From a bacterium (GTDB lineage: Bacteria; Sumerlaeota; Sumerlaeia; SLMS01; JAHLLQ01), in contig JAHLLQ010000003.1 of the NCBI GenBank assembly GCA_020444065.1, positions 258,979 to 322,978 of the forward strand: a DNA stretch of 64,000 bases. Direction: 5' to 3'. Below are positions 13,028 to 28,009 of this stretch, piece after piece. Every line of letters begins with the position of its first letter. Within the stretch, counting starts at the first letter, position 1. Below the pieces are notes generated by a model. That model was given only the letters and a program-made list of their open reading frames with translations, was not told the DNA's origin and made no database searches. The position numbers and the translations under genes were made by a program.

Positions 13028-16000
13028 ATGATACTCGAGCGTCTCGCTATGCGTGGCCGTGGGCAGTTTGCCGCGGCGATCTTCTGCTGCTTGTCGGTGG
13101 CGATCTTTTGTGGGCTTTCCACTCCAGGTCTTTCTTTCCTGCCGCCCATCACGATTCCTCCTCCGTCGCCGGAATACTATGGCTTCTTCGGAAATGCCGT
13201 CGGTCTGGACGATGTGGATGGCGACGGGGCCGGCGATTTCCTGATTAGTAGTTCGACCACCACGTATCTCTACTCAGGCGACACTCAGTCGATCATCACT
13301 GCGTTTCCAGGCGGCTACCGCGGTCTGACGAACGATGTGGACGGCGATGGTCTGCCGGAGGTGGTCGTTGATTCCAGTGGGACCCTGGAAGTTTATCGTC
13401 TGGATAGCACGTATGTTTATACGATCAGTGGAGTAAGCGGTTTCATGGCGTCGGGAATCGACGACGTGACGGGTGATGGAATCTCCGATCTCCTCTATTG
13501 GGATACTAGTAACCTGAACCTGATTTCCGGTGCTGATGGGTCGACGATCATCTGGATCGTTCCGCTTTCCTTTAACGGGATGATCGCGCCGATGGCCAAG
13601 GGAATCGACGATATTGATGGGGATGGTTGGAGTGACGTTCTCGTCCAGGATCCGGGCGCGACCGTGGGTGGCGTACAAAATGCCGGGCGGATTTTCTTCC
13701 TCTCTTCTCAGTCCGGACTCGAAATCCCGCGGCAGAATACCATCACGAATGAGGTTGATGCCTTCTATGGAATGTCGGCGACGCCGATCCCCGATGTAGA
13801 CGGGGACGGGATCGAGGACTTTGCGATTGGTGCGCCCGGAGTATATCCTGCGGGGCATGTGCATGTCGTCTCGGGAGCAACCGGCTGGGAGATCTCGCGT
13901 TTCCGCGAACTGCAGACCTCCTCCTTCTACATCAATGGAGATGGTGTTGAGGATGCTTGGGACTTGTACGGTCAGACCTACTCCCTGACAGGGCTGGGGA
14001 CTTCGATCTGTGTCTTGCCCGGCTTCGGCGGCCAGGGCATTGGCGGCTTTGTCGTCGGCGCGCCGACGGGTCCGGATACTTTCTATCAGTTTATCACCAA
14101 TATTGGCCTTCCCGGGGGCTACGGGCGGGCGATTGTATACGGCGGAAAACAGGCACAAATCTGCCAAAGCTTGCCGCCATACGGCGGAACTACCTGCACG
14201 GACGCGTACACATGGAGTGCCTTTGATCCTCCGGCACAGAATCCCATCATGGCTTCACCGGATCCGAATCCCTGGGGCGGACATCACGGACGGCGCTTTG
14301 GATGGGGTGTGACGGCCGTTCCGGATATTAACGGCGATGGAGCCTCGGAGGTTCTCGTCTCCGATCCGATGATCGGGCTCGAGGTTGGGCAGCCGGAATT
14401 GAGCGGACGAGCGTACTTGTATATGTCATATGCCTCTACGGACGTTTGGCCGACAGACATCGACTTCGGATCGGTAACTCCGGATGTGGTCCATGCCGAG
14501 CAGTTTGCCACGATTCGCAATCGCGGCACAGCCCCAATCGGATTCGACACTCCGGCCTACGCAATTACGGGCGCGGATTCGAGTTACTTCAGCGTATCGG
14601 ACGCCCCGTCGACAGATTCACTGGCGATTGGCGAGGCCCATCCCTTCAAGGTCTCATTTACGCCGACCGGACTGGATTTCGGTCCCAAGTCGGCCCAACT
14701 GGAAGTCTACACGATTCCGGCAGGCACAGCGGGCCCGGCCCTGGCAGGGCTCTACTCGTCCGTGAAGGTCTTCCCATCCATCTTGCAGGTCTTCGCCGAT
14801 ACGACGGTCGGCGAGGCATCCGACAGTCGTCAGTTCCGTCTCCAGAACTTCTCTCCCACGCCTTTGACGTTCACCGGCGACGCGGTCTCATTCCAGGGAG
14901 CCAATCCTGGCGACTTCCAGTTTGCTACGCCGCCGGATTTCTCGCCGCTGGCGCAGGATGAGATCCGCATCTTCCAGGTGCAGTTTGCACCGACAATGAT
15001 GGGTGATCGCCAGGCGATCCTGCGGTTTGAGACTTCGGATCCGTACGAGCCCCTCATCGAGGTCGACCTCAGTGGATACGGCGCCTGGGTAACTCCGCAG
15101 GCGATTGACTTCGGGAGCGTGGAGCCGGGAATGCATCCCGCCCAGACGATTACGATCACAAACTTCTCAACCGAAGTCATCAACTTCATGTGGCCGTTTA
15201 TCAGCATCGAAGGACCGGATACGGAGATGTTCCGCTTTGAGCGCGGTCCGCTGACGACGCCGCTGCATCCGGGCGAGTCGCGCGAGATTGGCGTTCACTT
15301 CGCTCCGACATTGGCTGGCGAGTTCTCGGCGCGCGTGCAGTTCTACACAGATTTCGCAGCAGAGCCCAGTCCATCCGTCAACCTCCAAGGGACATGTTCA
15401 TTCCTCCCGGATTACGCGATGTTGACGCACTTCCAGGCGGAGCCGACATCCGGCATTGATGTGCGAATCGGGTATTTCCACCCAGCGAATGCCTGGCACG
15501 ATGAGACGCTCTTCCCTGGCCTCACGATTCCGCCAGGCTACGAACTCGTGACTCCAGTCGAAGCGGATAGCCCGAGCGATTTCTTTGGGCTGTCGACGAG
15601 GCTGGACGGTTTCGAGTTCTCGATCTTCGAAATCGACGCAGACATCGGCAACACGGATGTTGCATACACCACGGATACCATCCTCTACAATGGGAACGAC
15701 CTTTGTATCGATGCCGATGGCACCATCGTCACGGCTGATTCCGAAGGGATTGTTCGGATCGACCCGGATACGCTTGAGCGTACACTGCTGATTCCATGGT
15801 TTGATCTGTATTTGGAGGGATACCCTCAGCCAGGCGTCGATGTGATTCGCACGGACTCGCTGGGGCGCATCTGGTTTTCGCGGTATGGCCTGTGGCGGTT
15901 CGATCCTTCGACATCCGATATCGATCATGCTTCGCAGCCCGGAGTAACCTCATTTGTACTGACTGCATCGAATGAGGCAATCATCCAACACGACTACGGG

Positions 16001-19000
16001 TTCTATTCGATCGATCCGGATACGCTTATAGAGACTTTGATCTACGAGCAGCCATACGCGAGCAGCGAACCACCCAATCTCCCCGAGAACATCCCGATGG
16101 CAATGATGCCGGACGGGCGAGTAGTGTGCATCGACACCTATGCGACTTACATGTACCGCGATAGGGTCCGCGCCTTCATTCTGGATCCGGACAGTTCCAG
16201 CGTTCAGATCAGCGGTTCCTCTCCGACGAGTAGCGTCCCGAGTGGCGTGAACGAGTATGCGATTTCGCTCGGCGCAGAATATCGTCCGGGGCTTTCGTTG
16301 CTCGATCCATTCACCGACTACACGTTTGCCGGAACGCAGATCAGTCTACCGTTCACGGCGACGGGGCTCGGCGGCGACGATGTCACGAGTGTCAGCCTCT
16401 ATGTGAAGGTCCCAGGGTCGACTTCGTTCGTTGATACCGGGTTGTTTGAGCTCGCCGATTCGGGCGTGTTCAACTACACGCTTGCCAATGGAAACGGCGA
16501 GTACCAATTCGCGACGGCGTCCTCGGATGCTTCCGGGCACACCGAGCCGACACCGACGATTGCTGAAGTCATCATTCTGGCGAACACAACTCTCGGCGGA
16601 GTCTTCGTCCAATCCACGGGCTCCTCGAATCAGTCCTACATCTTCCCCATGACCCCGGGCCAGGATGCCGTAATCTGGCTGGAGAGTGCGAATGCGGGCG
16701 GACAGTTCTCTGTTCAGCGTTCGACACCCCTGGTTCCTCCGACCGGTTTCTCTTCATACTCGCTCATTGATGAGTATCTGACTATCAACGAAGGCACGCC
16801 ATCCCTGGGGACGAGTTGGAATGCGACGATCTACTGGCAGATCGATCCTGCAAGCGACGACTTGCTGCCGGATCCGATCGAGTACGTCTATCAGTTCGAG
16901 GGAGGAAGTTTCCTTGCGCAATACCCCGTTGCCCTTGTCGACAACACGCTGACGATTGGTGGCGTAACGGACTTCAGCGAATGGTACGCTGGCTTCGATC
17001 CTCCGCCACCGCCGGCAAAGGCGATCATGCCGCTGCCTGCGGATGGAGCGACGTCGCAGTCCGTCGACCTGACGCTGTATTGGGTGAATGGTGGCGGGGC
17101 GGATTCCTTCGATATCTACTTTGGAACAACACCGAGTGTGAGCTATCTTGGGTCGTCATCGCTTGGCCGCTTCGATCTTCCGAGCACGTTGGATTACAGC
17201 ACGCCGTACTACTGGCGGATCGATTCCATTAACGGCGGTGGAGTAACCACCGGCGATCTGTGGACCTTCAGCACCGCGGCCGGCGATACACCTGCTAGGG
17301 CCTATTCGCCGAGCCCCTACATGGCGGAGACCGGCGTTCCGATCGACGCCGACTTGTATTGGCAATCCATCGATGCACCCGGAATGAACGCCTTTGACAA
17401 TGGCGGCTTCGAGTACGGCTCGTTCGACAACTGGACGGCGACTCAGGGACCGGAAACTGAATACCAGCCTTGGACGATTTCTACTTCGGGCACGACTTCG
17501 TATCCTTGTTCACCGACGGACGGGAGCTATTTTGCCCTCAATGGTTTCGATGGTGGGGCGGGGTTGACGTATGATTTGTATCGCGACTTCACAGTTCCTG
17601 CGGGAGTAACGTCCGTTTCAGTGAGTTGGGATGAGCGCTTCCAGTGGCAGAATTGGGGGACGCTTCCGCGCGAGTATGAAGTGACCCTCGAGCCAGCCGG
17701 CGGCGGAACGCCGATCGCCACGCTGACAACGTTCCAGCTTCCGGCAGGAACTTCGGACGATACCGGTTGGACAAACCAGTCCCACGATTTGTTGGCGATC
17801 GACCCGGCTGCGCCGGGAAGCAGCTACAGGCTGCACTTCCACGAATTCGTTCCCGAAGACTTCACGGGACCTGCGCAATTCAACCTGGACAACGTTGCGC
17901 TGAACGTGATGCTCAATTCCAATGTCACGTTCCACGTTCATCTCGACACGTTCCGCTCGCCTGCGTGGGTCAGTTCGCAGTCCGAAACGACTTACGACCC
18001 GGGCACGATGTCGCCTTCGGAAACGTACTTCTGGCGCATCGATGTGGAGGACAGCGTCGGATACACGATCGGCGATCCTTGGTTCTTTGAGACAGCGCCT
18101 CTACCCGATCCGGCGACGAATATCAGCCCGACAAGCGGCTCGCTCGGCATCTCGACGAATACAATGCTCTATTGGGGTACGGGTGCAAACACAGACGGCT
18201 TCGATGTGTTCTTCGGCGAGGCCGGCAGTCTTGCGCCGATGGGCTATCAGACCGAATCGTTCTATAACCCAGGCACGTTGGCGCCGCTGACGGACTATGA
18301 GTGGCGCATTGATTCAGTTGGCCCGGGAGGAACAACAACGGGCGACGTCTGGGGATTCCAGACGGGCGATATTCCACAGAAGGCCATCAATCCGGATCCA
18401 GCGGACGGAGCGACGACGGTTTCGGTTAACTCCACGCTGATCTGGGAAGATGGCGGTGGAGCCGATTTCTTCGATATTTACCTGGGCATTAATGGTCCGG
18501 AGTCTTTCTTTACCAGCACGAGTGAGACCTCCTACAATCTCGGCACGATGCCCTACGATGTGGATGTGAATTGGCGCGTCGATTCGTGGAACAGCATTGG
18601 GGTACGGACCGGCGACGCGTGGACGTATCATACGGAACCGCCGCCTCCACCGCCAAGCAAGGCGATTAGCCCGAGTCCTGCCGACGGCGCGACGTCGCAG
18701 TCGCGTGAACTCCTGCTGACTTGGCAGGATGGCGGGGGAGCAGACACGTTCGATATCTACTTCGGCGAGACGTTCCCGCCAATCTATCAAGGATCCAGCA
18801 TCATCGGGGAGTTCGATCCGGGCGTTCTGGACTTTGGGAAGACGTACTTCTGGCGCATCGATTCGATTAACGCCGGTGGTGTGACGACCGGCGATCCGTG
18901 GTCGTTCTCGACCGCAGCGAATGGCCCGCCATTAAAACCGACGGATCCCTATCCATACGTCGGCATGTCTTACGTCCCAGTCGATACGTCGATGTGGTGG

Positions 19001-22000
19001 CAATCCGTCGACGCGGCCTTCAGCCAGGAATTCGAGAACGGCGGATTCGAGACCGGGTGGTTTGACTACTGGACGCCGACAGCAAGTGAATCGAGCTACA
19101 ATTCTTGGACTGTCACGAGTTCGGCCGGCTTCTTCGTACCCGTCTATCCGATAGAGGGCAATTATCTGGCGACTTCAGACTTCGATGGAAATGCAAGCGA
19201 CACCTTCAACTTGTACCGGGACTTCACGGTTCCCGCCGACGCGGTTTCTGCAGAGATCTCTTGGGACGATCGCATTCAGTGGGACATGCTCGGTGGAACA
19301 CTCGAGCGACAGTACGATGTGTTGCTGGAGCCGGCTGGCGGTGGAGCGCCGATAGCGACGCTTTATTCGACGACGCTCGCGAATGGTCTCCCAACCTTCA
19401 GCGATACGGATTGGATGCCGCACACAGTAGACCTGATGGCGATTGATCCGGGAGCAGCAGGCACCAGCTATCGACTTAGTTTCCAGCTATATGTGCCGGA
19501 AAGCTATACTGGACCGGCAATGTATTTCCTCGACGATGTTCAGCTCACGGTGGAAGCAGCCGATGGTGCCACCTTCCACCTGTACATGGCAGAGGCACCC
19601 GCTCCGCCGGCATACGTAACCTCGCAGAGCGAGACACTCTACACGCCCTCTCCCTCTCTGAATCCTGGGACGACGTATCTCTGGCGCGTCGATGCGGAGA
19701 ATCCGTTCGGCTACGTAACGGGAGACGAATGGTACTTCACAACGTATCCGACTCCCGAGTCGGCATACAATCCGTCGCCATATGATGGACAAATCGATGT
19801 GAGCCCAACGTCCGGACTGTTCTGGTCCTACGGAGCCTACACGGATTCGTTCGATGTGTACTTCGGAACAAGCGAACCCTTGCCGCTTGTTTCGGATCAT
19901 CAATCCTGGAGCTACTACTACCCGCCGATGAATCCCCAGGAAACCTACCTGTGGCGGATTGATTCCAACGGCCCAGGCGGTACGACAACCGGTGCGACCT
20001 GGAGCTTCACGACGAGCGGTCCGCCGCAGCAGGCGATTAACCCGAGCCCCGCGGACTGGGCGACCTCGCAGCCGCGCGAACTTCTGCTGACCTGGCAGAA
20101 TGGCGGCGGAGCGACCTCCTACGATGTTTACTTTGGGGACACGTTCCCGCCGATTTATCGACAGAGTGTGAGCTTCGAGGAGTTCGACCCAGGACCGCTC
20201 GCGCTCGATACAACGTACTTCTGGCGCATCGATTCTGTGAGTTCAAGCGGCGTGACCACAGGCAACACGTGGAGGTTCTCGACGGTTGTTGTCGGTCCTC
20301 CGGTCAAGCCGACCGATCCCTATCCCTTCGACGGCATGGCCAGTGTGGCGGTGGACACGGACATGTGGTGGCAGTCCATCGACGCGGCGACCTCTCAGGA
20401 GTTTGAGAACGGTGGCTTCGAGAGCGGTTGGTTCGATTACTGGTATCAAAGTGTGAGTCCGGAATCCTCCTACAACTCCTGGGGCGTGAACTACGATGAA
20501 CCGAACGCGCCCGAGGGATACTACTACGCCACGAATGCATTCGACGGCGAAGCGAGCCAGACGCTCGATCTGTATCGAGAGTTCACTGTACCGCCAGATG
20601 CCACGGCGGTCGACCTGTCCTGGTCGGACCGCATCTCCTGGAGCTATCTGGCGGGAGCTCTCGAGCGCGAATATTATGTTTTCCTGGAGCCGGCTGGCGG
20701 CGGCGCACCGATCGCTGTCCTCTACTCGTTCTCGTTACCGAACTTCGTCGAGGACGACACAGGCTGGACAACTCACACAGTTGATCTGCTGTCGGTCGAT
20801 CCGGCGGCACCGGGAAGCAGCTATCGTTTGCACTTCCAGCAGGTGATTCCCGAGTTCTACACCGGCCCGGCGCAATACTACCTGGACGATGTGCGACTGG
20901 ACATCCAGCGGCCTAGCGACACGACATTCCACCTCTTCATGTCGGAGGTCCCGGATTCGCCGACATACGTCACGTCTCAAAGCGAGACGATCTACACGCC
21001 GTCGCCTTCGTTGAATCCGGGCTCTGCGTACTACTGGCGCGTGGATGCCGAGAATCCGTATGGCTACACGACAGGAGACCAGTGGCTCTTCAGCACGGCT
21101 CCACTTCCAGGCCAGGCCACGGTACCAAGTCCATGGGATGGCGAGACTGGCGTGAATCTCTCGTACACCCTGTGGTGGAATTGGCCGACCGACACGCAGA
21201 CGTTCGATATCTACTTCGGCACTTCGGATACCATGACTCTGGTTTCCACTCAGAATTACATCGGCTACACAACGCCGACGATGGATCCGAATACAACGTA
21301 CTTCTGGCGTGTCGACTCGATTGGTCCTGGTGGCCGCACAACCGGCATGCTCTGGAGCTTCACGACTGGAGCTCCACCGCAACCTGCCAGCAATCCATGG
21401 CCGCCCGACGGAGCGACCGGCATTCCCACCGATCTGACCTTGACGTGGACAGGCGATCCCGCCGCCACGGACTTCGAGGTCTGGCTGGATACGGTCGATC
21501 CGCCGACGCTCCCACCTTTGTACACGCCGACGCCGGATTGGTACGTGAGCGGTCTGGCGACGGATCAGACCTACTTCTGGCAGGTCAACAGTTGGGATGG
21601 TTCGCAATGGACCTACGGTCCCGTGTGGTCCTTCTCCACGATCAGCACGGGCGGTCCGCCCGAGATGTTCCTGGATCCCCTTAGCATGAATATCAACGTC
21701 GAGCCAGGAAACACGGGCCTCGAATCGTTGCTGATTGTCAACAACGCGCCTCCGGGATTTGACGATCTGACCTACAACATCACGACCTGGACAAACGACT
21801 TGATCGAGCAATCCGAAGTCGTCGGCAATCCGCTCGCCTCCTGGACCGGTACGGATCGTTATCGCGGCAATCTCTACTATGTTGACAGCGATACGTTGCT
21901 GACGGAGATCGAGTCCTGGCTGGACTACCAGTCCGGCGGTTTGAACTTCGTTGTTCTGGAGTCCACGGATCGGTACGGATCGTTCAACATGGTCCAGGAT

Positions 22001-23068
22001 GTCTGGGCCAGTCCCGCGACGCCGGGCGTGGGTTACCACTCCAGCGGTCCGATGAACGTGATGCTGCAAGCCGGGCACTACTATATGATCGGCGTCGGTT
22101 GGGGACTGGATACGGTGGCCTACTACGGCGATATGGACCCGGGTCCCCATTCGGTCAGCTTCGGACAACAAGTGACCGGCTGGTACGCGAACGAGTTCCC
22201 GATTCTGCATCCGGCTCCGGCCCAGGAGACGGTGACGAACTTCGTCCAGCGTCTGACGACCGGGCATTCCTGGCTGTCGATCGAGTCGGGGTCGATCGCT
22301 GCGCCGAGCGGCACTTTGCCGCCGACGGATGGTGGAACGATCAATGTCGTGGCCGATTCAACGGGCCTGCCCGATGGCATCTACGAAGGGCACCTGATGA
22401 TTGCCACAAACGATCCCGATCCGCCGACATCCGATGTGCTTGTTCTGATGATCGTGAACACGCCTCCGTCGGTGCAGAGCGTCGACCCGCCGACAAGCAC
22501 GACGGTGCAGGTGCCGACGCTCGAGCTCGTGTTCGAGTTCAGCGAGCCCGTGTTCGATCTGGACATCGGCGACCTGGGCGTGAGCGGCGACGCCGCCTCG
22601 GCAGCCGTCGTTCTTCCGCCGGTGCAGCTTGGTCCGACGACGTGGAGCTACACGATCGATGCGCTCGTGCCCGGGTGGCTCAGCGTTGAGCTCGGCATCG
22701 TGCCGGGCGGCATTGTGGACGATCTCGGCACGGAGCTCTCAGGACCGAACGTCTATGGCTACACCGTTCAGGATACTCCGAGCGGACTGCCCGGCGACGA
22801 GGATCACAACGGCGAGGTGACGCTGTTCGAACTGAACGCCGTGATCATTGCCTACCGTGGCCTGGGCCCGGCTCCGAGTAGCGCGGACATCGATCCGACC
22901 GACGGCACGATCTCGCTCGGCGAACTGAACGCGGTGGTACTGGCCTACCGAGGCCTGTGGCCGCCTTCCGGAATGCAGTCGAACATGGGGACGGCGACAC
23001 CAACTCCCGTGTCGACGCAACCCAGCACCCCAACCGCCACCCCGACGGTTACGCCCATCTTTCCGTGA
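13028..23068 (+). CDS. giant exported multidomain protein with dockerin-like C-terminus
   Basis: A 3,346-aa protein. A signal peptide (FAAAIFCCLSVAIFCGL) is followed by FG-GAP/integrin-like repeats with DVDGDG-type calcium loops (about 58-450). Next come three choice-of-anchor/ASH-like units (about 471-790, IDFGSVTPDVVHAEQF, IDFGSVEPGMHP), then an NHL-like read-out section (about 880-1080, GTIVTADSEGIVRIDPDTL). Fibronectin-III-like and MAM/carbohydrate-binding-like modules follow in long super-repeats (about 1327-2880). A BACON-like section (WLSIESGSIAAPSG), a bacterial Ig-like domain (about 3140-3240) and a two-part dockerin-like region (about 3254-3312, GDEDHNGEVTLFELNAVI and ISLGELNAVVLAYRG) precede a TPTP-rich tail. 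No catalytic domain is apparent. A secreted or cell-surface adhesive or scaffold role is inferred. Confidence 0.85.
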   Translation: MILERLAMRGRGQFAAAIFCCLSVAIFCGLSTPGLSFLPPITIPPPSPEYYGFFGNAVGLDDVDGDGAGDFLISSSTTTYLYSGDTQSIITAFPGGYRGLTNDVDGDGLPEVVVDSSGTLEVYRLDSTYVYTISGVSGFMASGIDDVTGDGISDLLYWDTSNLNLISGADGSTIIWIVPLSFNGMIAPMAKGIDDIDGDGWSDVLVQDPGATVGGVQNAGRIFFLSSQSGLEIPRQNTITNEVDAFYGMSATPIPDVDGDGIEDFAIGAPGVYPAGHVHVVSGATGWEISRFRELQTSSFYINGDGVEDAWDLYGQTYSLTGLGTSICVLPGFGGQGIGGFVVGAPTGPDTFYQFITNIGLPGGYGRAIVYGGKQAQICQSLPPYGGTTCTDAYTWSAFDPPAQNPIMASPDPNPWGGHHGRRFGWGVTAVPDINGDGASEVLVSDPMIGLEVGQPELSGRAYLYMSYASTDVWPTDIDFGSVTPDVVHAEQFATIRNRGTAPIGFDTPAYAITGADSSYFSVSDAPSTDSLAIGEAHPFKVSFTPTGLDFGPKSAQLEVYTIPAGTAGPALAGLYSSVKVFPSILQVFADTTVGEASDSRQFRLQNFSPTPLTFTGDAVSFQGANPGDFQFATPPDFSPLAQDEIRIFQVQFAPTMMGDRQAILRFETSDPYEPLIEVDLSGYGAWVTPQAIDFGSVEPGMHPAQTITITNFSTEVINFMWPFISIEGPDTEMFRFERGPLTTPLHPGESREIGVHFAPTLAGEFSARVQFYTDFAAEPSPSVNLQGTCSFLPDYAMLTHFQAEPTSGIDVRIGYFHPANAWHDETLFPGLTIPPGYELVTPVEADSPSDFFGLSTRLDGFEFSIFEIDADIGNTDVAYTTDTILYNGNDLCIDADGTIVTADSEGIVRIDPDTLERTLLIPWFDLYLEGYPQPGVDVIRTDSLGRIWFSRYGLWRFDPSTSDIDHASQPGVTSFVLTASNEAIIQHDYGFYSIDPDTLIETLIYEQPYASSEPPNLPENIPMAMMPDGRVVCIDTYATYMYRDRVRAFILDPDSSSVQISGSSPTSSVPSGVNEYAISLGAEYRPGLSLLDPFTDYTFAGTQISLPFTATGLGGDDVTSVSLYVKVPGSTSFVDTGLFELADSGVFNYTLANGNGEYQFATASSDASGHTEPTPTIAEVIILANTTLGGVFVQSTGSSNQSYIFPMTPGQDAVIWLESANAGGQFSVQRSTPLVPPTGFSSYSLIDEYLTINEGTPSLGTSWNATIYWQIDPASDDLLPDPIEYVYQFEGGSFLAQYPVALVDNTLTIGGVTDFSEWYAGFDPPPPPAKAIMPLPADGATSQSVDLTLYWVNGGGADSFDIYFGTTPSVSYLGSSSLGRFDLPSTLDYSTPYYWRIDSINGGGVTTGDLWTFSTAAGDTPARAYSPSPYMAETGVPIDADLYWQSIDAPGMNAFDNGGFEYGSFDNWTATQGPETEYQPWTISTSGTTSYPCSPTDGSYFALNGFDGGAGLTYDLYRDFTVPAGVTSVSVSWDERFQWQNWGTLPREYEVTLEPAGGGTPIATLTTFQLPAGTSDDTGWTNQSHDLLAIDPAAPGSSYRLHFHEFVPEDFTGPAQFNLDNVALNVMLNSNVTFHVHLDTFRSPAWVSSQSETTYDPGTMSPSETYFWRIDVEDSVGYTIGDPWFFETAPLPDPATNISPTSGSLGISTNTMLYWGTGANTDGFDVFFGEAGSLAPMGYQTESFYNPGTLAPLTDYEWRIDSVGPGGTTTGDVWGFQTGDIPQKAINPDPADGATTVSVNSTLIWEDGGGADFFDIYLGINGPESFFTSTSETSYNLGTMPYDVDVNWRVDSWNSIGVRTGDAWTYHTEPPPPPPSKAISPSPADGATSQSRELLLTWQDGGGADTFDIYFGETFPPIYQGSSIIGEFDPGVLDFGKTYFWRIDSINAGGVTTGDPWSFSTAANGPPLKPTDPYPYVGMSYVPVDTSMWWQSVDAAFSQEFENGGFETGWFDYWTPTASESSYNSWTVTSSAGFFVPVYPIEGNYLATSDFDGNASDTFNLYRDFTVPADAVSAEISWDDRIQWDMLGGTLERQYDVLLEPAGGGAPIATLYSTTLANGLPTFSDTDWMPHTVDLMAIDPGAAGTSYRLSFQLYVPESYTGPAMYFLDDVQLTVEAADGATFHLYMAEAPAPPAYVTSQSETLYTPSPSLNPGTTYLWRVDAENPFGYVTGDEWYFTTYPTPESAYNPSPYDGQIDVSPTSGLFWSYGAYTDSFDVYFGTSEPLPLVSDHQSWSYYYPPMNPQETYLWRIDSNGPGGTTTGATWSFTTSGPPQQAINPSPADWATSQPRELLLTWQNGGGATSYDVYFGDTFPPIYRQSVSFEEFDPGPLALDTTYFWRIDSVSSSGVTTGNTWRFSTVVVGPPVKPTDPYPFDGMASVAVDTDMWWQSIDAATSQEFENGGFESGWFDYWYQSVSPESSYNSWGVNYDEPNAPEGYYYATNAFDGEASQTLDLYREFTVPPDATAVDLSWSDRISWSYLAGALEREYYVFLEPAGGGAPIAVLYSFSLPNFVEDDTGWTTHTVDLLSVDPAAPGSSYRLHFQQVIPEFYTGPAQYYLDDVRLDIQRPSDTTFHLFMSEVPDSPTYVTSQSETIYTPSPSLNPGSAYYWRVDAENPYGYTTGDQWLFSTAPLPGQATVPSPWDGETGVNLSYTLWWNWPTDTQTFDIYFGTSDTMTLVSTQNYIGYTTPTMDPNTTYFWRVDSIGPGGRTTGMLWSFTTGAPPQPASNPWPPDGATGIPTDLTLTWTGDPAATDFEVWLDTVDPPTLPPLYTPTPDWYVSGLATDQTYFWQVNSWDGSQWTYGPVWSFSTISTGGPPEMFLDPLSMNINVEPGNTGLESLLIVNNAPPGFDDLTYNITTWTNDLIEQSEVVGNPLASWTGTDRYRGNLYYVDSDTLLTEIESWLDYQSGGLNFVVLESTDRYGSFNMVQDVWASPATPGVGYHSSGPMNVMLQAGHYYMIGVGWGLDTVAYYGDMDPGPHSVSFGQQVTGWYANEFPILHPAPAQETVTNFVQRLTTGHSWLSIESGSIAAPSGTLPPTDGGTINVVADSTGLPDGIYEGHLMIATNDPDPPTSDVLVLMIVNTPPSVQSVDPPTSTTVQVPTLELVFEFSEPVFDLDIGDLGVSGDAASAAVVLPPVQLGPTTWSYTIDALVPGWLSVELGIVPGGIVDDLGTELSGPNVYGYTVQDTPSGLPGDEDHNGEVTLFELNAVIIAYRGLGPAPSSADIDPTDGTISLGELNAVVLAYRGLWPPSGMQSNMGTATPTPVSTQPSTPTATPTVTPIFP
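17010..21650 (+). repeat. internal super-repeats in the giant gene
   Basis: A block of about 1,375 bp recurs three times, starting near 17010, 18650 and 20030. Each block holds an FN3-like module (ADGATSQS or DWATSQP, WRIDS, GVTTG), a MAM-like module (SQEFENGGFE, PAGGGAPIA) and a second FN3-like module (SFDVYFGTSE-like). Extra FN3-like modules lie at about 18370-18640 and 21380-21650. Blocks 2 and 3 are the most alike. This indicates growth of the gene by in-frame tandem duplication. Confidence 0.8.
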
Positions 23069-23116
23069 GAGTAGGGGCGGAACTCTGTGTGTAACCGATC
23101 ATCGTAATGTCCCACC

Positions 23117-23152
23117 CGAGAAACGGCCTTGCTTCGGCAGGGCCGTTTCTCG
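23117..23152 (+). terminator. 16-bp hairpin with UUCG loop after the giant gene
   Basis: CGAGAAACGGCCTTGC pairs with GCAGGGCCGTTTCTCG (one G-U pair) around a TTCG tetraloop. The stem is very stable but no T-run follows on the plus strand. It lies 49 nt after the giant gene's stop and 26 nt before the peptidase start, so it may end the upstream transcript, protect its 3' end, or structure the leader of the next operon. Confidence 0.6.
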
Positions 23153-23178: not shown

Positions 23179-23907
23179 ATGCAAGAAGAACTCCCTTTTC
23201 AAATTCAAGCCCAGCCGAATGAGACGACATGCGGTGCGACTTGTCTGCATGCCGTGTATCGCTACTTCGGTGACGACATCCCGTTGAACAACCTGGTGGA
23301 GGAAGTGCCCCAGCTCGAAGGTGGCGGCACTCTGGCCGCCTTCCTCGGGTGCCACGCGCTGAAGCGTGGATACCGGGCGCGAATCTATACCTACAATTTG
23401 AAGGCTTTCGATCCGACCTGGTTTTCGAAGGACGACGTGGATTTGCGCGAGCGGCTGAAGGCGCAGCTCGAATTCAAGCACAGCCGGAAGCTGCGCGTCG
23501 TGACGCGTGGTTATCGTGAGTTCCTGAAGCTCGGCGGCAAGATCCACTTCGAGGACCTTCGCACGTCGCTGATCCGCCGGTTCCTGAAGAAGGGCATTCC
23601 GATCATCACGGGGCTCAGCGCCACCTATCTGTATCGAATCCCCCGCGAGTTTGGGCCGAAGGCAGACTCGGACGATCTGCGCGGAGAACCCTCCGGGCAC
23701 TTCGTCGTGCTGTGCGGGTACGACTCGGCGACGCACGAGGTCGTCGTGGCCGATCCGCTGCGACCGAATCCGCCTTTCCAACGTCACGTCTATCGGATCG
23801 AAATCGAGCGCGTCATCTGCGCTATTCTGCTTGGCATCCTGACCGATGATGCCAATTTGCTGGTTCTGGAAGCTCCCCCCGGCGAAAGGAAATCCGCCCC
23901 TCAATGA
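23179..23907 (+). CDS. C39-like papain-fold cysteine peptidase, cassette gene 1
   Basis: A 242-aa cytosolic-looking protein with no signal peptide. It begins with QAQPNETTCGATCLHAVYRY, the peptidase C39 active-site block, where Cys18 is the likely nucleophile. The matching His (GHFVVLCGYD, H174) and Asp (VVVADPL, D192) lie at the spacing expected for the family. There is no ABC-transporter part, unlike bacteriocin-export C39 proteins. ATG 23179 follows GAAGGAAG; the open frame upstream runs through the hairpin and is not used. It overlaps the ATP-grasp gene by ATGA. The context suggests it cleaves or transfers a peptide or isopeptide made by the two ligases downstream (inference). Confidence 0.82.
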   Translation: MQEELPFQIQAQPNETTCGATCLHAVYRYFGDDIPLNNLVEEVPQLEGGGTLAAFLGCHALKRGYRARIYTYNLKAFDPTWFSKDDVDLRERLKAQLEFKHSRKLRVVTRGYREFLKLGGKIHFEDLRTSLIRRFLKKGIPIITGLSATYLYRIPREFGPKADSDDLRGEPSGHFVVLCGYDSATHEVVVADPLRPNPPFQRHVYRIEIERVICAILLGILTDDANLLVLEAPPGERKSAPQ

Positions 23908-25379
23908 GTAACCTGATCGTTGTGAACGATCCCAAGGACTGGCCTATCGATACCCCTGGCGTGCAAGTTGTCGCCGCCCGTGCGTACCTGACCGATCCTG
24001 CTTTTGCTCAACTCCGACAAGCCAAGGTCTTCAACCTGTGCCGTTCGTATCGCTACCAGGCGCTGGGTTACTACGTCTCGCTCCTGGCCGCGGCCCGCGG
24101 GCACAAGACGCTGCCGGCGGTGAACACGATTCAAGACCTCAAGTCGATGACCCTGATCCGATTCGTGTCTGAGGACCTGGAGCGGGAAATCAATCGCAGC
24201 CTGGCGCCGATTCAATCGAGCAAGTTCACGCTCAGCATCTATTTCGGAAAGAACGTTGCGAAGCGCTACGACCGCTTGAGCAGCCAACTGTTCCGCTACT
24301 TCCCGGCGCCGCTGATGCAGGCGCACTTCGTCAATGGCAAGGACGGTTGGGTGATGCAGAACATCGGCCCGATCGGCGCCAGTGAGATTCCCGCCGGGCA
24401 TCACGAGGTGGTGCTCGAGTTTGCGCGGGAGTACTTCGAGAAGCGTCCGTTGCCGAGCGGCGTCGACGTGCCGTCGGGGCGCTACAGCATGGCGATTCTA
24501 TTCAGCGGTGAGGAGGAAATGTCACCGTCGGATACGAAAGCCATCGCGCGATTCCAGCGCGCATTCGAGAAGCTGGACTTCGACGTCGAGATTATCACGC
24601 GCGACGATTACGGCCGGCTGGCAGAGTTCGATGCGCTCTTTATTCGCGATCTGACCGGCGTGAATCATCACTCGTATCGATTCGCGCGGCGGGCGAAAGC
24701 TGAGGGCCTCGTCGTCATTGACGACCCCGATTCGATCCTGCGTTGCACGAACAAGGTCTTCCTGGCGGAGTTGCTGACTCGCGCGAAAATCCCGACTCCG
24801 AAAACGGTGATCCTGCACCGGGACAACATCAACGAGATGGCCGACACGATCGGTCTTCCGTGCATTTTGAAGCAGCCCGACAGCTCTTTCTCCCAAGGCG
24901 TCGTAAAGGTCGACACCGAAGAGGAGTTGCAGGCTGAGGCAAAGCGTTTCCTGGAACGCTCGGAACTCGTGATCGCTCAGGAATTCCTGCCGACCGCCTT
25001 CGACTGGCGAATTGGCATATTGGATCGCCAGCCGTTGTATGTCTGCCGTTACCACATGGCGAGGTCGCATTGGCAGATCGTGAAGCGCGACGCCGGTGGA
25101 AAGGAGCGATGGGGCAAGTCGGAGACGATTCCACTCTGGCAGGCGCCTCCAAACGTCGTGCAGACGGCAGTGCGGGCGGCGAACCTGATTGGCGATGGGC
25201 TGTATGGTGTGGACCTGAAGGAATCGAACGGCAATTGCTACATCATCGAGATCAACGACAACCCGGACATCGTGGCGGGCTACGAGGATGCGGATTCGAA
25301 GGATCAACTGTACCAGCGATTCGCCGAGGTCTTCCTGAACCGCATCGAACGAAAGAAAGAACGGCGGGCCCATCGATGA
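23904..25379 (+). CDS. RimK-like ATP-grasp ligase with N-terminal RLAN-type domain
   Basis: A 491-aa protein with two parts. Residues 1 to about 190 match the RimK-like N-terminal domain (RLAN: KVFNLCRSYRYQALGYYVSL, then MQNIGPIGASEIP). Residues about 285-485 form an ATP-grasp fold with the nucleotide lysine in ILKQPDSSFSQGVVKV (K323) and the Mg-binding end IIEINDNPDIVAGYED. RimK relatives add amino acids to protein or peptide carboxylates with ATP. The specificity here cannot be read from sequence. It overlaps both neighbours by ATGA, so the three products are probably made in fixed ratio. Proteins with this architecture are generally annotated only as 'RimK family'. Confidence 0.88.
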   Translation: MSNLIVVNDPKDWPIDTPGVQVVAARAYLTDPAFAQLRQAKVFNLCRSYRYQALGYYVSLLAAARGHKTLPAVNTIQDLKSMTLIRFVSEDLEREINRSLAPIQSSKFTLSIYFGKNVAKRYDRLSSQLFRYFPAPLMQAHFVNGKDGWVMQNIGPIGASEIPAGHHEVVLEFAREYFEKRPLPSGVDVPSGRYSMAILFSGEEEMSPSDTKAIARFQRAFEKLDFDVEIITRDDYGRLAEFDALFIRDLTGVNHHSYRFARRAKAEGLVVIDDPDSILRCTNKVFLAELLTRAKIPTPKTVILHRDNINEMADTIGLPCILKQPDSSFSQGVVKVDTEEELQAEAKRFLERSELVIAQEFLPTAFDWRIGILDRQPLYVCRYHMARSHWQIVKRDAGGKERWGKSETIPLWQAPPNVVQTAVRAANLIGDGLYGVDLKESNGNCYIIEINDNPDIVAGYEDADSKDQLYQRFAEVFLNRIERKKERRAHR

Positions 25380-26599
25380 CATCCCCTCTTCATTTATTCG
25401 AAGGATTCGGCGTCGAGTTGGAGTACATGATCGTCGACTCAGAAACACTGTCGGTTCGCTCGATTGCGGACGAACTGCTGATGGCCGAGGCAGGGGAGTA
25501 CGTCAGCGATGTGGAACGCGGCGACCTGGATTGGTCGAACGAGTTGGCGCTGCATGTGATCGAGCTGAAAACCGCCGGGCCGGCTGCCGACTTGGGCGGG
25601 TTGGCGGGAAAATTCCAGCGCGATGTCGATGCTGCGAACGAGTTGCTGGCGCCGATGGGGGCGCGCCTGATGCCCGGCGCGATGCATCCGTGGATGGATC
25701 CGTTCACGGAGATGAAGCTGTGGCCACACGAGTACAGTCCAATCTACGAGGCGTACAATCGCATCTTCGATTGCCGCGGCCACGGTTGGGCGAATTTGCA
25801 GAGCACGCACATCAACCTGCCATTCTGCGGGGACGAGGAATTCGGTCGCCTGCATGCCGCGATTCGCGTTCTGCTGCCGATCCTTCCTGCGCTGGCGGCG
25901 AGTTCGCCTGTCTACAACGGAGCCGCCGGGCCCGGCCTGGATTGTCGGCTGAAGGTCTATCAAAGCAACCAGCGGCGGATTCCTTCGGTGGCCGGCGCAG
26001 TCATTCCTGAACCGGTCTTCACGCGTGGGGATTATGAGGAGCGCATTTTCGCACCGATGTTCCGGGACATCGCTCCGCATGATCCGGACAAGATTCTGCA
26101 GGGCGAATTCCTGAACAGCCGCGGCGCCATCGCGCGCTTCGGCCGCGGGTCGATCGAGATCCGTGTGCTGGACATCCAGGAATGCCCCGAGGCGGACTTG
26201 GCGGTGGTTGCCCTGATTGTGGAAGTGCTGCGCGCGCTCGTTGCCGAGACCTGGACCAGTGGCGAGGAGCAGCGCGGGTGGGAAGTCGGGGAGTTGGCTG
26301 AGATTCTCGCGCGTACAATAGAGAAGGCCGAGGAAGCCGTTCTGGACGATCCGTGGTACCTGGCCCTGTTTGGTTTTGCGGGGGAACGGGCGACGGCGGG
26401 GGAGCTGTGGCATCACCTGGCGGCGGATCTGCTGCCGGATGGTGAATCTCGCCGGGCGCTGGACCTGATCTTGACCCGCGGACCCCTCGCGAGGCGGATT
26501 CTGTGGGCGGTGGGCGGGGATTTCTCTCCCGGGCGCCTTGCTGCCGTTTATGGCGATTTATGCGATTGTTTGCGCGATGGACGCCTTTTTGGGGCCTAG
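25376..26599 (+). CDS. GCS2-type carboxylate-amine ligase (glutamate-cysteine ligase family)
   Basis: A 407-aa protein of the glutamine-synthetase-fold GCS2/YbdK family. It shows the acidic metal block GFGVELEYMIVD at the start, TAGPAADL, HPWMDP, GHGWANLQSTHINLPF (substrate loop), SSPVYNGAAGPGLDCRLKVY and a C-terminal IEIRVLDIQECP. These enzymes make gamma-glutamyl or other amide bonds with ATP. The start ATG 25376 overlaps the ATP-grasp stop (ATGA); the longer upstream frame lies within the preceding gene. Beside an ATP-grasp ligase and a C39-like peptidase, it probably builds a small peptide-like metabolite or a protein tag rather than ordinary glutathione (inference). Confidence 0.85.
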   Translation: MTSPLHLFEGFGVELEYMIVDSETLSVRSIADELLMAEAGEYVSDVERGDLDWSNELALHVIELKTAGPAADLGGLAGKFQRDVDAANELLAPMGARLMPGAMHPWMDPFTEMKLWPHEYSPIYEAYNRIFDCRGHGWANLQSTHINLPFCGDEEFGRLHAAIRVLLPILPALAASSPVYNGAAGPGLDCRLKVYQSNQRRIPSVAGAVIPEPVFTRGDYEERIFAPMFRDIAPHDPDKILQGEFLNSRGAIARFGRGSIEIRVLDIQECPEADLAVVALIVEVLRALVAETWTSGEEQRGWEVGELAEILARTIEKAEEAVLDDPWYLALFGFAGERATAGELWHHLAADLLPDGESRRALDLILTRGPLARRILWAVGGDFSPGRLAAVYGDLCDCLRDGRLFGA

Positions 26600-26794
26600 T
26601 CAGCCCCTATTCTGACAAAAGGTGCAGCGTTTTAGTCGTTTCTAACCCGGACTTTAAACATTATTTGAAAATTCTATTGACCGAGCGCCCCCAAATAGGC
26701 TTGGTGTCAGGCGACTTTTGCTTACGAGAAGGCAGAAGTTATTCACACAGCGGCACTCGCCGGAATGACGGGGGTGCAGGGGACGTTTTTCGAG

Positions 26795-28009
26795 ATGAAT
26801 CGAACTGGTCTACTGACACGAAAAAGCGATTCGCGCCGTTCTTCGGTGCTTTATCAGCTTTGGAAAGAAGGACCCATCTCTCGCGGCGCGCTCGCGGATC
26901 TGATGGGGCTGAATCTGCCAACGGTTTCCGCCGTCGTGCAGGAACTCATCAAGAGCGGTGAACTGATCGAGGAGGGCTTTGCCACCTCGACCGGCGGTCG
27001 CAAGGCTCAGTTGCTTGATGTGAACCCGAAGCAGGGCGGCGTGGTCGCGATCGAGTTCAGCTCGCGCGGCATCCTCTCGGCTTCGGCGGACATGAAGGGC
27101 CGCCTGCACAACCACGTGATCCGGCCGTTCAATCCTTCGCTCGGAAAGGAAGGAACGCTGCAGGCCATTATCGAGGCCATCGAGGACCAGAAGCAGTTCT
27201 TGAAAGAAGACGAAGGGCTGGAGATGGCCCGCATCGGCGTGGTGCTGTCCGGTTTGCTGGACGAGCAGAACGGCACTTCGATTTCCTTCCCGCGCTTCGA
27301 GGAGTGGCAGAACGTCAACGTCGTCGAGATCCTCGAGAAGAAATTCAAGGTACCCGTCGATTTGGCGAGCCACGTGATCGGGACGACGCTGGCGGAGAGC
27401 ATCTTCGGGCGATTCAGGGAGATGCGGAATTTCCTGTACGTGCATCTGGGCCCCGGACTGGCCGTCGGCATGGTCATCGATGGGCTGGTCTATCGCGGCA
27501 CCAAGGCGACCGTCGGCGAGTTCGGCCACATCACGATCGATGACAACGGGCCCATCTGCTACTGCGGCAACTACGGCTGCCTGGAGACGCTCGCGAGCGA
27601 CTGGGCGCTGGTGCAGCAGGCCGAGCAGGCCATCAAGGAAGGCGTGCAGTCCCACATCCCCGAGCACGTCGACGACTCCGGCGAGATCACGCCGTCGGCC
27701 GTCTTCCATGCCGCGGAGATGGGCGATCGCCTGGCCGGTAACATCATCGATAAGTCCGGCCACTACCTGGGCACGGCGCTGGCCGGCCTGGTGAATCTGC
27801 TGGCGCCGGAAGCGATCGTGTTCGGCGGTTCAATGGCCGAAGACGGCGAGCGTCTGATCAAGGCGATCCTGCACACCGTGAAGCGTCGCGCGCTGGAGCC
27901 CATGGAGCACGACATCCGCGTCGACCTCGGCACATTCGGGCTGCAGGCGGGCGTCGTCGGCGCGGTGGCCATTGCTCTGCATACGCACTACAGCTCCTAC
28001 GACGACTGA
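26795..28009 (+). CDS. ROK-family transcriptional regulator
   Basis: A 404-aa NagC/XylR-like protein. The N-terminus holds a winged helix (ISRGALADLMGLNLPTVSAVVQELIKSGEL). The ROK domain carries the zinc motif GHITIDDNGPICYCGNYGCLE. The usual sugar-kinase phosphate loop (DIGGTK-like) is replaced by AIEFSSRG, and VHLGPGLAVGMVIDG remains, so a sugar-sensing repressor rather than a kinase is likely. ATG 26795 follows AGGGGA and starts just before the helix-turn-helix. It stands alone between the ligase cassette and a terminator, so its targets cannot be read from context. Confidence 0.88.
   Translation: MNRTGLLTRKSDSRRSSVLYQLWKEGPISRGALADLMGLNLPTVSAVVQELIKSGELIEEGFATSTGGRKAQLLDVNPKQGGVVAIEFSSRGILSASADMKGRLHNHVIRPFNPSLGKEGTLQAIIEAIEDQKQFLKEDEGLEMARIGVVLSGLLDEQNGTSISFPRFEEWQNVNVVEILEKKFKVPVDLASHVIGTTLAESIFGRFREMRNFLYVHLGPGLAVGMVIDGLVYRGTKATVGEFGHITIDDNGPICYCGNYGCLETLASDWALVQQAEQAIKEGVQSHIPEHVDDSGEITPSAVFHAAEMGDRLAGNIIDKSGHYLGTALAGLVNLLAPEAIVFGGSMAEDGERLIKAILHTVKRRALEPMEHDIRVDLGTFGLQAGVVGAVAIALHTHYSSYDD

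Follow-up and report, generated by a model that had tools for sequence, protein, structure and literature searches.

A conserved three-gene cassette encoding two predicted ATP-dependent ligases and a papain-like enzyme in a Sumerlaeota bacterium

Three adjacent genes of a Sumerlaeota bacterium, here called A, B and C, are best read as one operon for two ATP-dependent ligases and a papain-like enzyme. They lie in a window of 64,000 nucleotides, the whole stretch of DNA analysed here. Because the trio recurs with unchanged gene order in a dozen phyla or more, the cassette very likely makes or edits one small peptide or peptide tag. For the more specific reading, in which a small glutamyl peptide is assembled by the two ligases and trimmed or transferred by the papain-like enzyme, we estimate a probability of about 0.5. 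The features are:

23179..23907, + strand: gene A, C39-like papain-fold cysteine peptidase/transferase, cytosolic, 242 aa (Pfam, homologues, structure model)
23904..25379, + strand: gene B, RLAN N-terminal domain (residues 25-170) followed by a RimK-like ATP-grasp domain (about residues 195-470), 491 aa (Pfam, PDB matches)
25376..26599, + strand: gene C, divergent GCS2-family carboxylate-amine ligase, 407 aa (Pfam, conserved residues)
23117..23152, + strand: perfect 16-bp hairpin between the gene for a 3346-aa surface-type protein and the cassette (folding of the spacer)

The three ORFs are intact, span positions 23179-26599 and overlap by ATGA at 23904-23907 and at 25376-25379. A first-pass annotation, made from the sequence alone, had described three genes joined by two such overlaps and had assigned them to the C39-like, RLAN-RimK ATP-grasp and GCS2 families; coordinates and overlaps were recovered in the ORFs, and each protein scored above the Pfam cut-off of its family. 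The mechanical ORF of gene A opens at 23107, but we place the start at the Met at 23179, because the homologues begin there and because the longer ORF would run through the hairpin at 23117-23152. The 110-nt spacer that precedes the cassette folds with a minimum free energy of -43.2 kcal/mol (z -2.4). As the hairpin is not followed by a T-run, it is not a classic terminator; it is probably a transcript end or processing site dividing the unit of the giant upstream gene from that of the cassette. It is not a repeated genomic element, since a search with a 28-base pattern found it only once in the window's genome. No dedicated sigma-70 promoter for the cassette was found by consensus search, and a search for structured RNAs near it gave 0 Rfam matches in 20-30 kb. 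The upstream gene (13028-23068), which ends 110 bases before the cassette, encodes a 3346-aa secreted-type protein with FG-GAP repeats and several Ig-like domains (Pfam), and two EF-hand/dockerin-like repeats, GDEDHNGEVTLFELN and DIDPTDGTISLGELN, were recognized by eye at its C-terminus. Starting 166 bases past gene C, a gene at 26765-28009, outside the conserved cassette, codes for a ROK-family protein with a winged-helix N-terminus of the repressor type (Pfam).

The product of gene A matches Peptidase_C39_2 (52.4 bits; cut-off 24) and Peptidase_C39 (28.8 bits; cut-off 22), and Gln12, Cys18, His174 and Asp192 are each invariant in 89 of 89 homologues, which together mark it as a C39-like papain-fold enzyme. 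PDB matches to its structure model (pLDDT 82, pTM 0.84) include C39 domains as well as phytochelatin synthase and PeiR, a pseudomurein endoisopeptidase. The protein has neither a signal peptide nor a transporter part, as had been noted before, and its catalytic cysteine is residue 18; with 242 residues, no second domain and no fused ABC transporter, it is not a C39 bacteriocin-processing transporter. A C39-like protein distantly related to A occurs alone, with no ligase, in another family of Sumerlaeota (L224:3371-4126 and L225:3441-4217), next to a conserved gene for a protein of 233-237 aa on the opposite strand.

Gene B shows an N-terminal match to RLAN (159.8 bits; cut-off 25) and a match to RimK (36.2 bits; cut-off 21), and residues K284, K323, R369, D437, E449 and N451 are invariant (100/100), as expected of an RLAN-RimK ATP-grasp amidoligase with intact catalytic residues. 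Both by sequence and by fold, the PDB matches of its ATP-grasp half are RimK and LysX/ArgX, although in the structure model (pTM 0.56) the placement of the domains is less certain. Gene C, the sole GCS2 gene in the window's genome, matches GCS2 with 86.9 bits (cut-off 21), and E14, E16, E56, E63, K65, H145, R257, E261 and R263 are kept in 81-82 of 82 sequences; Pfam score and conserved acidic and Arg residues thus place it in the GCS2 superfamily.

The association of the three genes was examined in several samples. In a first sample of 99 genomes, B was found in 16; wherever the contig permitted, A lay directly upstream and C directly downstream of B in all Sumerlaeota and in genome G089, and G055 was the only carrier of B lacking both. 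A scan with the B alignment, using one genome per species, gave more than 500 relatives, and the best 80 were taken as loci. Among the 99 loci carrying B that these and other loci make up, 84 also have A and C, a proportion biased upward because the 80 had been selected for their resemblance to the query; the remainder are mostly cut by contig ends or have a lone B. The order A-B-C was constant wherever checked, with the genes mostly less than 60 bases apart (median gaps of 7 and 8 bases). A less biased sample of 386 genomes (40 Sumerlaeota and 346 from outside the phylum) had B in 36 genomes, C in 26, all 26 with B, and A in 29, 26 of them with B. The Fisher p values, about 1e-32 for C with B and about 5e-29 for A with B, are uncorrected for genome relatedness and for that reason too small, but the carriers nonetheless span many families. 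In G267, A is present on a contig other than that of B and C. Free separation of the genes, which the first-pass annotation had named as evidence against a joint pathway, is therefore mostly not seen, since C never occurs without B in the 386 genomes and 84 of the 99 loci keep the order A-B-C; part of the survey points the other way, with B lacking C in 10 of the 36 genomes (two of the 10 being contig ends) and the distant A homologue found without ligases in three Sumerlaeota genomes of a single family.

The arrangement occurs in at least a dozen phyla, with a mean pairwise identity of 50-55%; carriers are found in Sumerlaeota, Tectomicrobia, Desulfobulbaceae, Balneolia, Planctomycetota, Verrucomicrobiota, Gamma- and Betaproteobacteria, Hydrogenedentota, Nitrospiraceae, Vicinamibacteraceae, Krumholzibacteriia, Spirochaetes, Bacteroidetes and Myxococcales. 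The recurrence of one order in so many phyla excludes chance association, and pairs that are distant in one of the three proteins tend to be distant in the others as well (correlation of pairwise distances, r 0.58-0.76; at most 0.15 in shuffles). As for solitary forms of B, the RLAN-ATP-grasp gene of G202 is split in two frames (L156:7180-8713), that of its close relative G055 is intact, with no adjoining A or C, and a Pseudomonas aeruginosa plasmid carries B without partners, near a glutamate/aspartate transporter. Two other possibilities were discarded: a viral origin (0 relatives in viral contigs; phage matches reach only part of the ATP-grasp domain) and an anti-phage defence system (no PADLOC-DB match at E 0.01).

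The proposed survey for conserved partners also brought out a frequent fourth gene, overlooked when the set was first described as A, B and C. Of the 99 loci, 56 contain an FGase-family gene (N-formylglutamate-amidohydrolase-like, PF05013), which almost always follows C immediately, at a median distance of 1 base, and its candidate metal-site residues E11-H12, H35, H122/H126 and E204 (numbered in the trimmed alignment) are kept in 51-52 of 52 sequences. A Legionella adelaidensis record lists a RimK family protein, a glutamate-cysteine ligase family protein and an N-formylglutamate amidohydrolase in a row. No FGase was found in the window's genome. Judged from their residues, none of the active sites of A, B, C and FGase looks degenerate. 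An MFS transporter gene adjoins the cassette in six loci (four Sumerlaeota, two Planctomycetota); the window's genome has no close MFS partner, only a relative of 28% identity on another contig.

A pathway can be proposed from these families, for which we infer the amide-bond chemistry, the order of the steps, glutamate as a building block and a small product. C would convert the side-chain or alpha carboxylate of a glutamate-like acid to an acyl phosphate and join it to an amine; B would add a second amino acid, also at the expense of ATP, assisted by RLAN in acceptor binding; and A, through its Gln-Cys-His-Asp set, would cut or transfer an amide linkage in what they make, a reaction comparable to that of phytochelatin synthase on glutathione. 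In loci that have them, the FGase-like protein may remove either a terminal residue or an N-acyl group, and the MFS protein may carry the product across the membrane. According to a passage in a 2015 paper on ATP-grasp enzymes that cites Iyer et al. 2009, ligases of unrelated folds paired in operons often perform successive ligations (PMC4431377). The first-pass reading stands as regards a co-inherited cassette of amidoligase type whose active sites are intact and whose papain-like enzyme is cytosolic; ligation itself is a prediction from sequence.

A papain-like amidase, joined in many loci by an amidohydrolase and in a few by a transporter, makes a small peptide-like product the best reading, and it is consistent with the family matches, the constant order, the co-inheritance with correlated distances, the invariant catalytic residues, the fold of A, related to phytochelatin synthase and C39, and the fold of B, nearest to RimK and LysX/ArgX; nor is there a conserved small ORF near the cassette that could serve as a ribosomal precursor. 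On the other side, few loci show the MFS link and the family is a common one, the window's genome has no FGase, and B, alone in several genomes, may have an independent role. Moreover, the enzymes that B most resembles in fold act on proteins: RimK poly-glutamylates ribosomal protein S6, and LysX/ArgX act on the carrier protein LysW, the residues added being glutamate or aminoadipate. This makes reversible protein tagging the main rival, if an unlikely one: B and C would write glutamate-type residues on a target or C-terminus in a RimK- or PafA-like manner, and A, with FGase in the loci that have it, would expose the site or erase the mark. The four-gene form, which pairs two ligases with two hydrolases, would suit such a cycle, and GCS2 and PafA share a glutamine-synthetase-like ligase fold; however, no conserved target or carrier gene adjoins the cassette in the 99 loci, MFS genes adjoin some cassettes, and the GCS2 enzymes of known activity use, to our knowledge, free amino acids.

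Two further readings are less likely. A thiol or metal-chelation pathway, in which C would make gamma-glutamyl-cysteine or a relative, B would act like glutathione synthetase and A as a phytochelatin-synthase-like transpeptidase, is suggested by the GCS2 family name, the ATP-grasp fold, the fold match of A to Alr0975 and the lack of any other GCS2 in the genome. We regard it as improbable, given that C is distant from the solved glutamate-cysteine ligases (best PDB profile E 0.08) and far under all NCBIfam cut-offs for such enzymes, and that the Phytochelatin match of A is insignificant (10.5 bits against a cut-off of 24.9; E 0.35). Graspetides are products of ATP-grasp ligases, and leader removal by C39 peptidases is known from many RiPP systems (PMC8939145); in a graspetide-like system B could cyclise or extend a precursor encoded elsewhere, from which A would take off the leader. 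This is more improbable still: across the loci no conserved small ORF was found within 700 bases of either side, and a graspetide locus with its precursor gene beside the ATP-grasp gene was rejected accordingly; A has no transporter, B finds its best domain match in RimK/LysX and not in the graspetide ligases, and a survey of graspetide loci makes no mention of GCS2 (PMC8939145).

The small glutamyl peptide remains our preferred product. The claim of an undescribed pathway has to be narrowed, since RLAN is a named domain and the operon class had already been predicted, while product and chemistry are undescribed as far as searched. We found no experimental paper on an A-B-C operon in the searchable literature, which does not cover the gene orders of Iyer et al. 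2009, and no substrate, product or phenotype in searchable papers. With somewhat less than even odds, the cassette represents a widespread pathway of two ligases and a papain-like transferase, a unit kept across a dozen or more phyla, whose glutamyl oligopeptide metabolite or protein tag would be new to any organism. That one order is retained at about 50% identity in Sumerlaeota, Planctomycetota, Verrucomicrobiota, Pseudomonadota, Bacteroidota, Spirochaetota and others implies that the cassette must be useful, and culturable carriers such as Thiobacillus thioparus, Rufibacter, Pontibacter and Blastopirellula marina open its role to bench testing.

Pfam defines RLAN by its occurrence fused to a RimK-like ATP-grasp, a definition that reportedly goes back to Iyer et al. 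2009; with RLAN named and GCS2 and C39 known, the cassette falls into a predicted class. In general composition it resembles the amidoligase neighbourhoods of that 2009 prediction, with an ATP-grasp enzyme, another ligase and a peptidase in one operon. B shares the ATP-grasp domain and the metal and ATP residues of RimK and LysX/ArgX, but has the additional RLAN domain and scores far below cut-off for LysX (77 against 276 bits), the RimK family (73.1 against 143.4) and the S6 ligase (18.9 against 331; NCBIfam). C shares the GCS2 domain, over 280 positions, with the GCS2/YbdK carboxylate-amine ligases, but falls far under the YbdK-type cut-off (TIGR02050, 54.9 against 176.4 bits) and has no close solved relative. 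A has the papain-like fold and the Gln-Cys-His-Asp set in common with Alr0975 and the C39 leader peptidases, but is only 11-18% identical to them, carries an insertion between Cys and His, lacks a transporter and, unlike them, has a family-specific conserved loop (R156-E157/D165-D166). Finally, in a sister branch of B, an RLAN-ATP-grasp ligase also adjoins a C39-like peptidase domain, in GNAT-C39 fusions encoded directly upstream of RLAN-RimK in Azospirillum (L129:5769-6995) and in G325 (L162:8833-10005), or a GNAT protein (L145); in contrast to the cassette, the C39 domain of these operons is fused to a GNAT acetyltransferase and 27% identical to A, GCS2 is absent, and B belongs to a separate branch.
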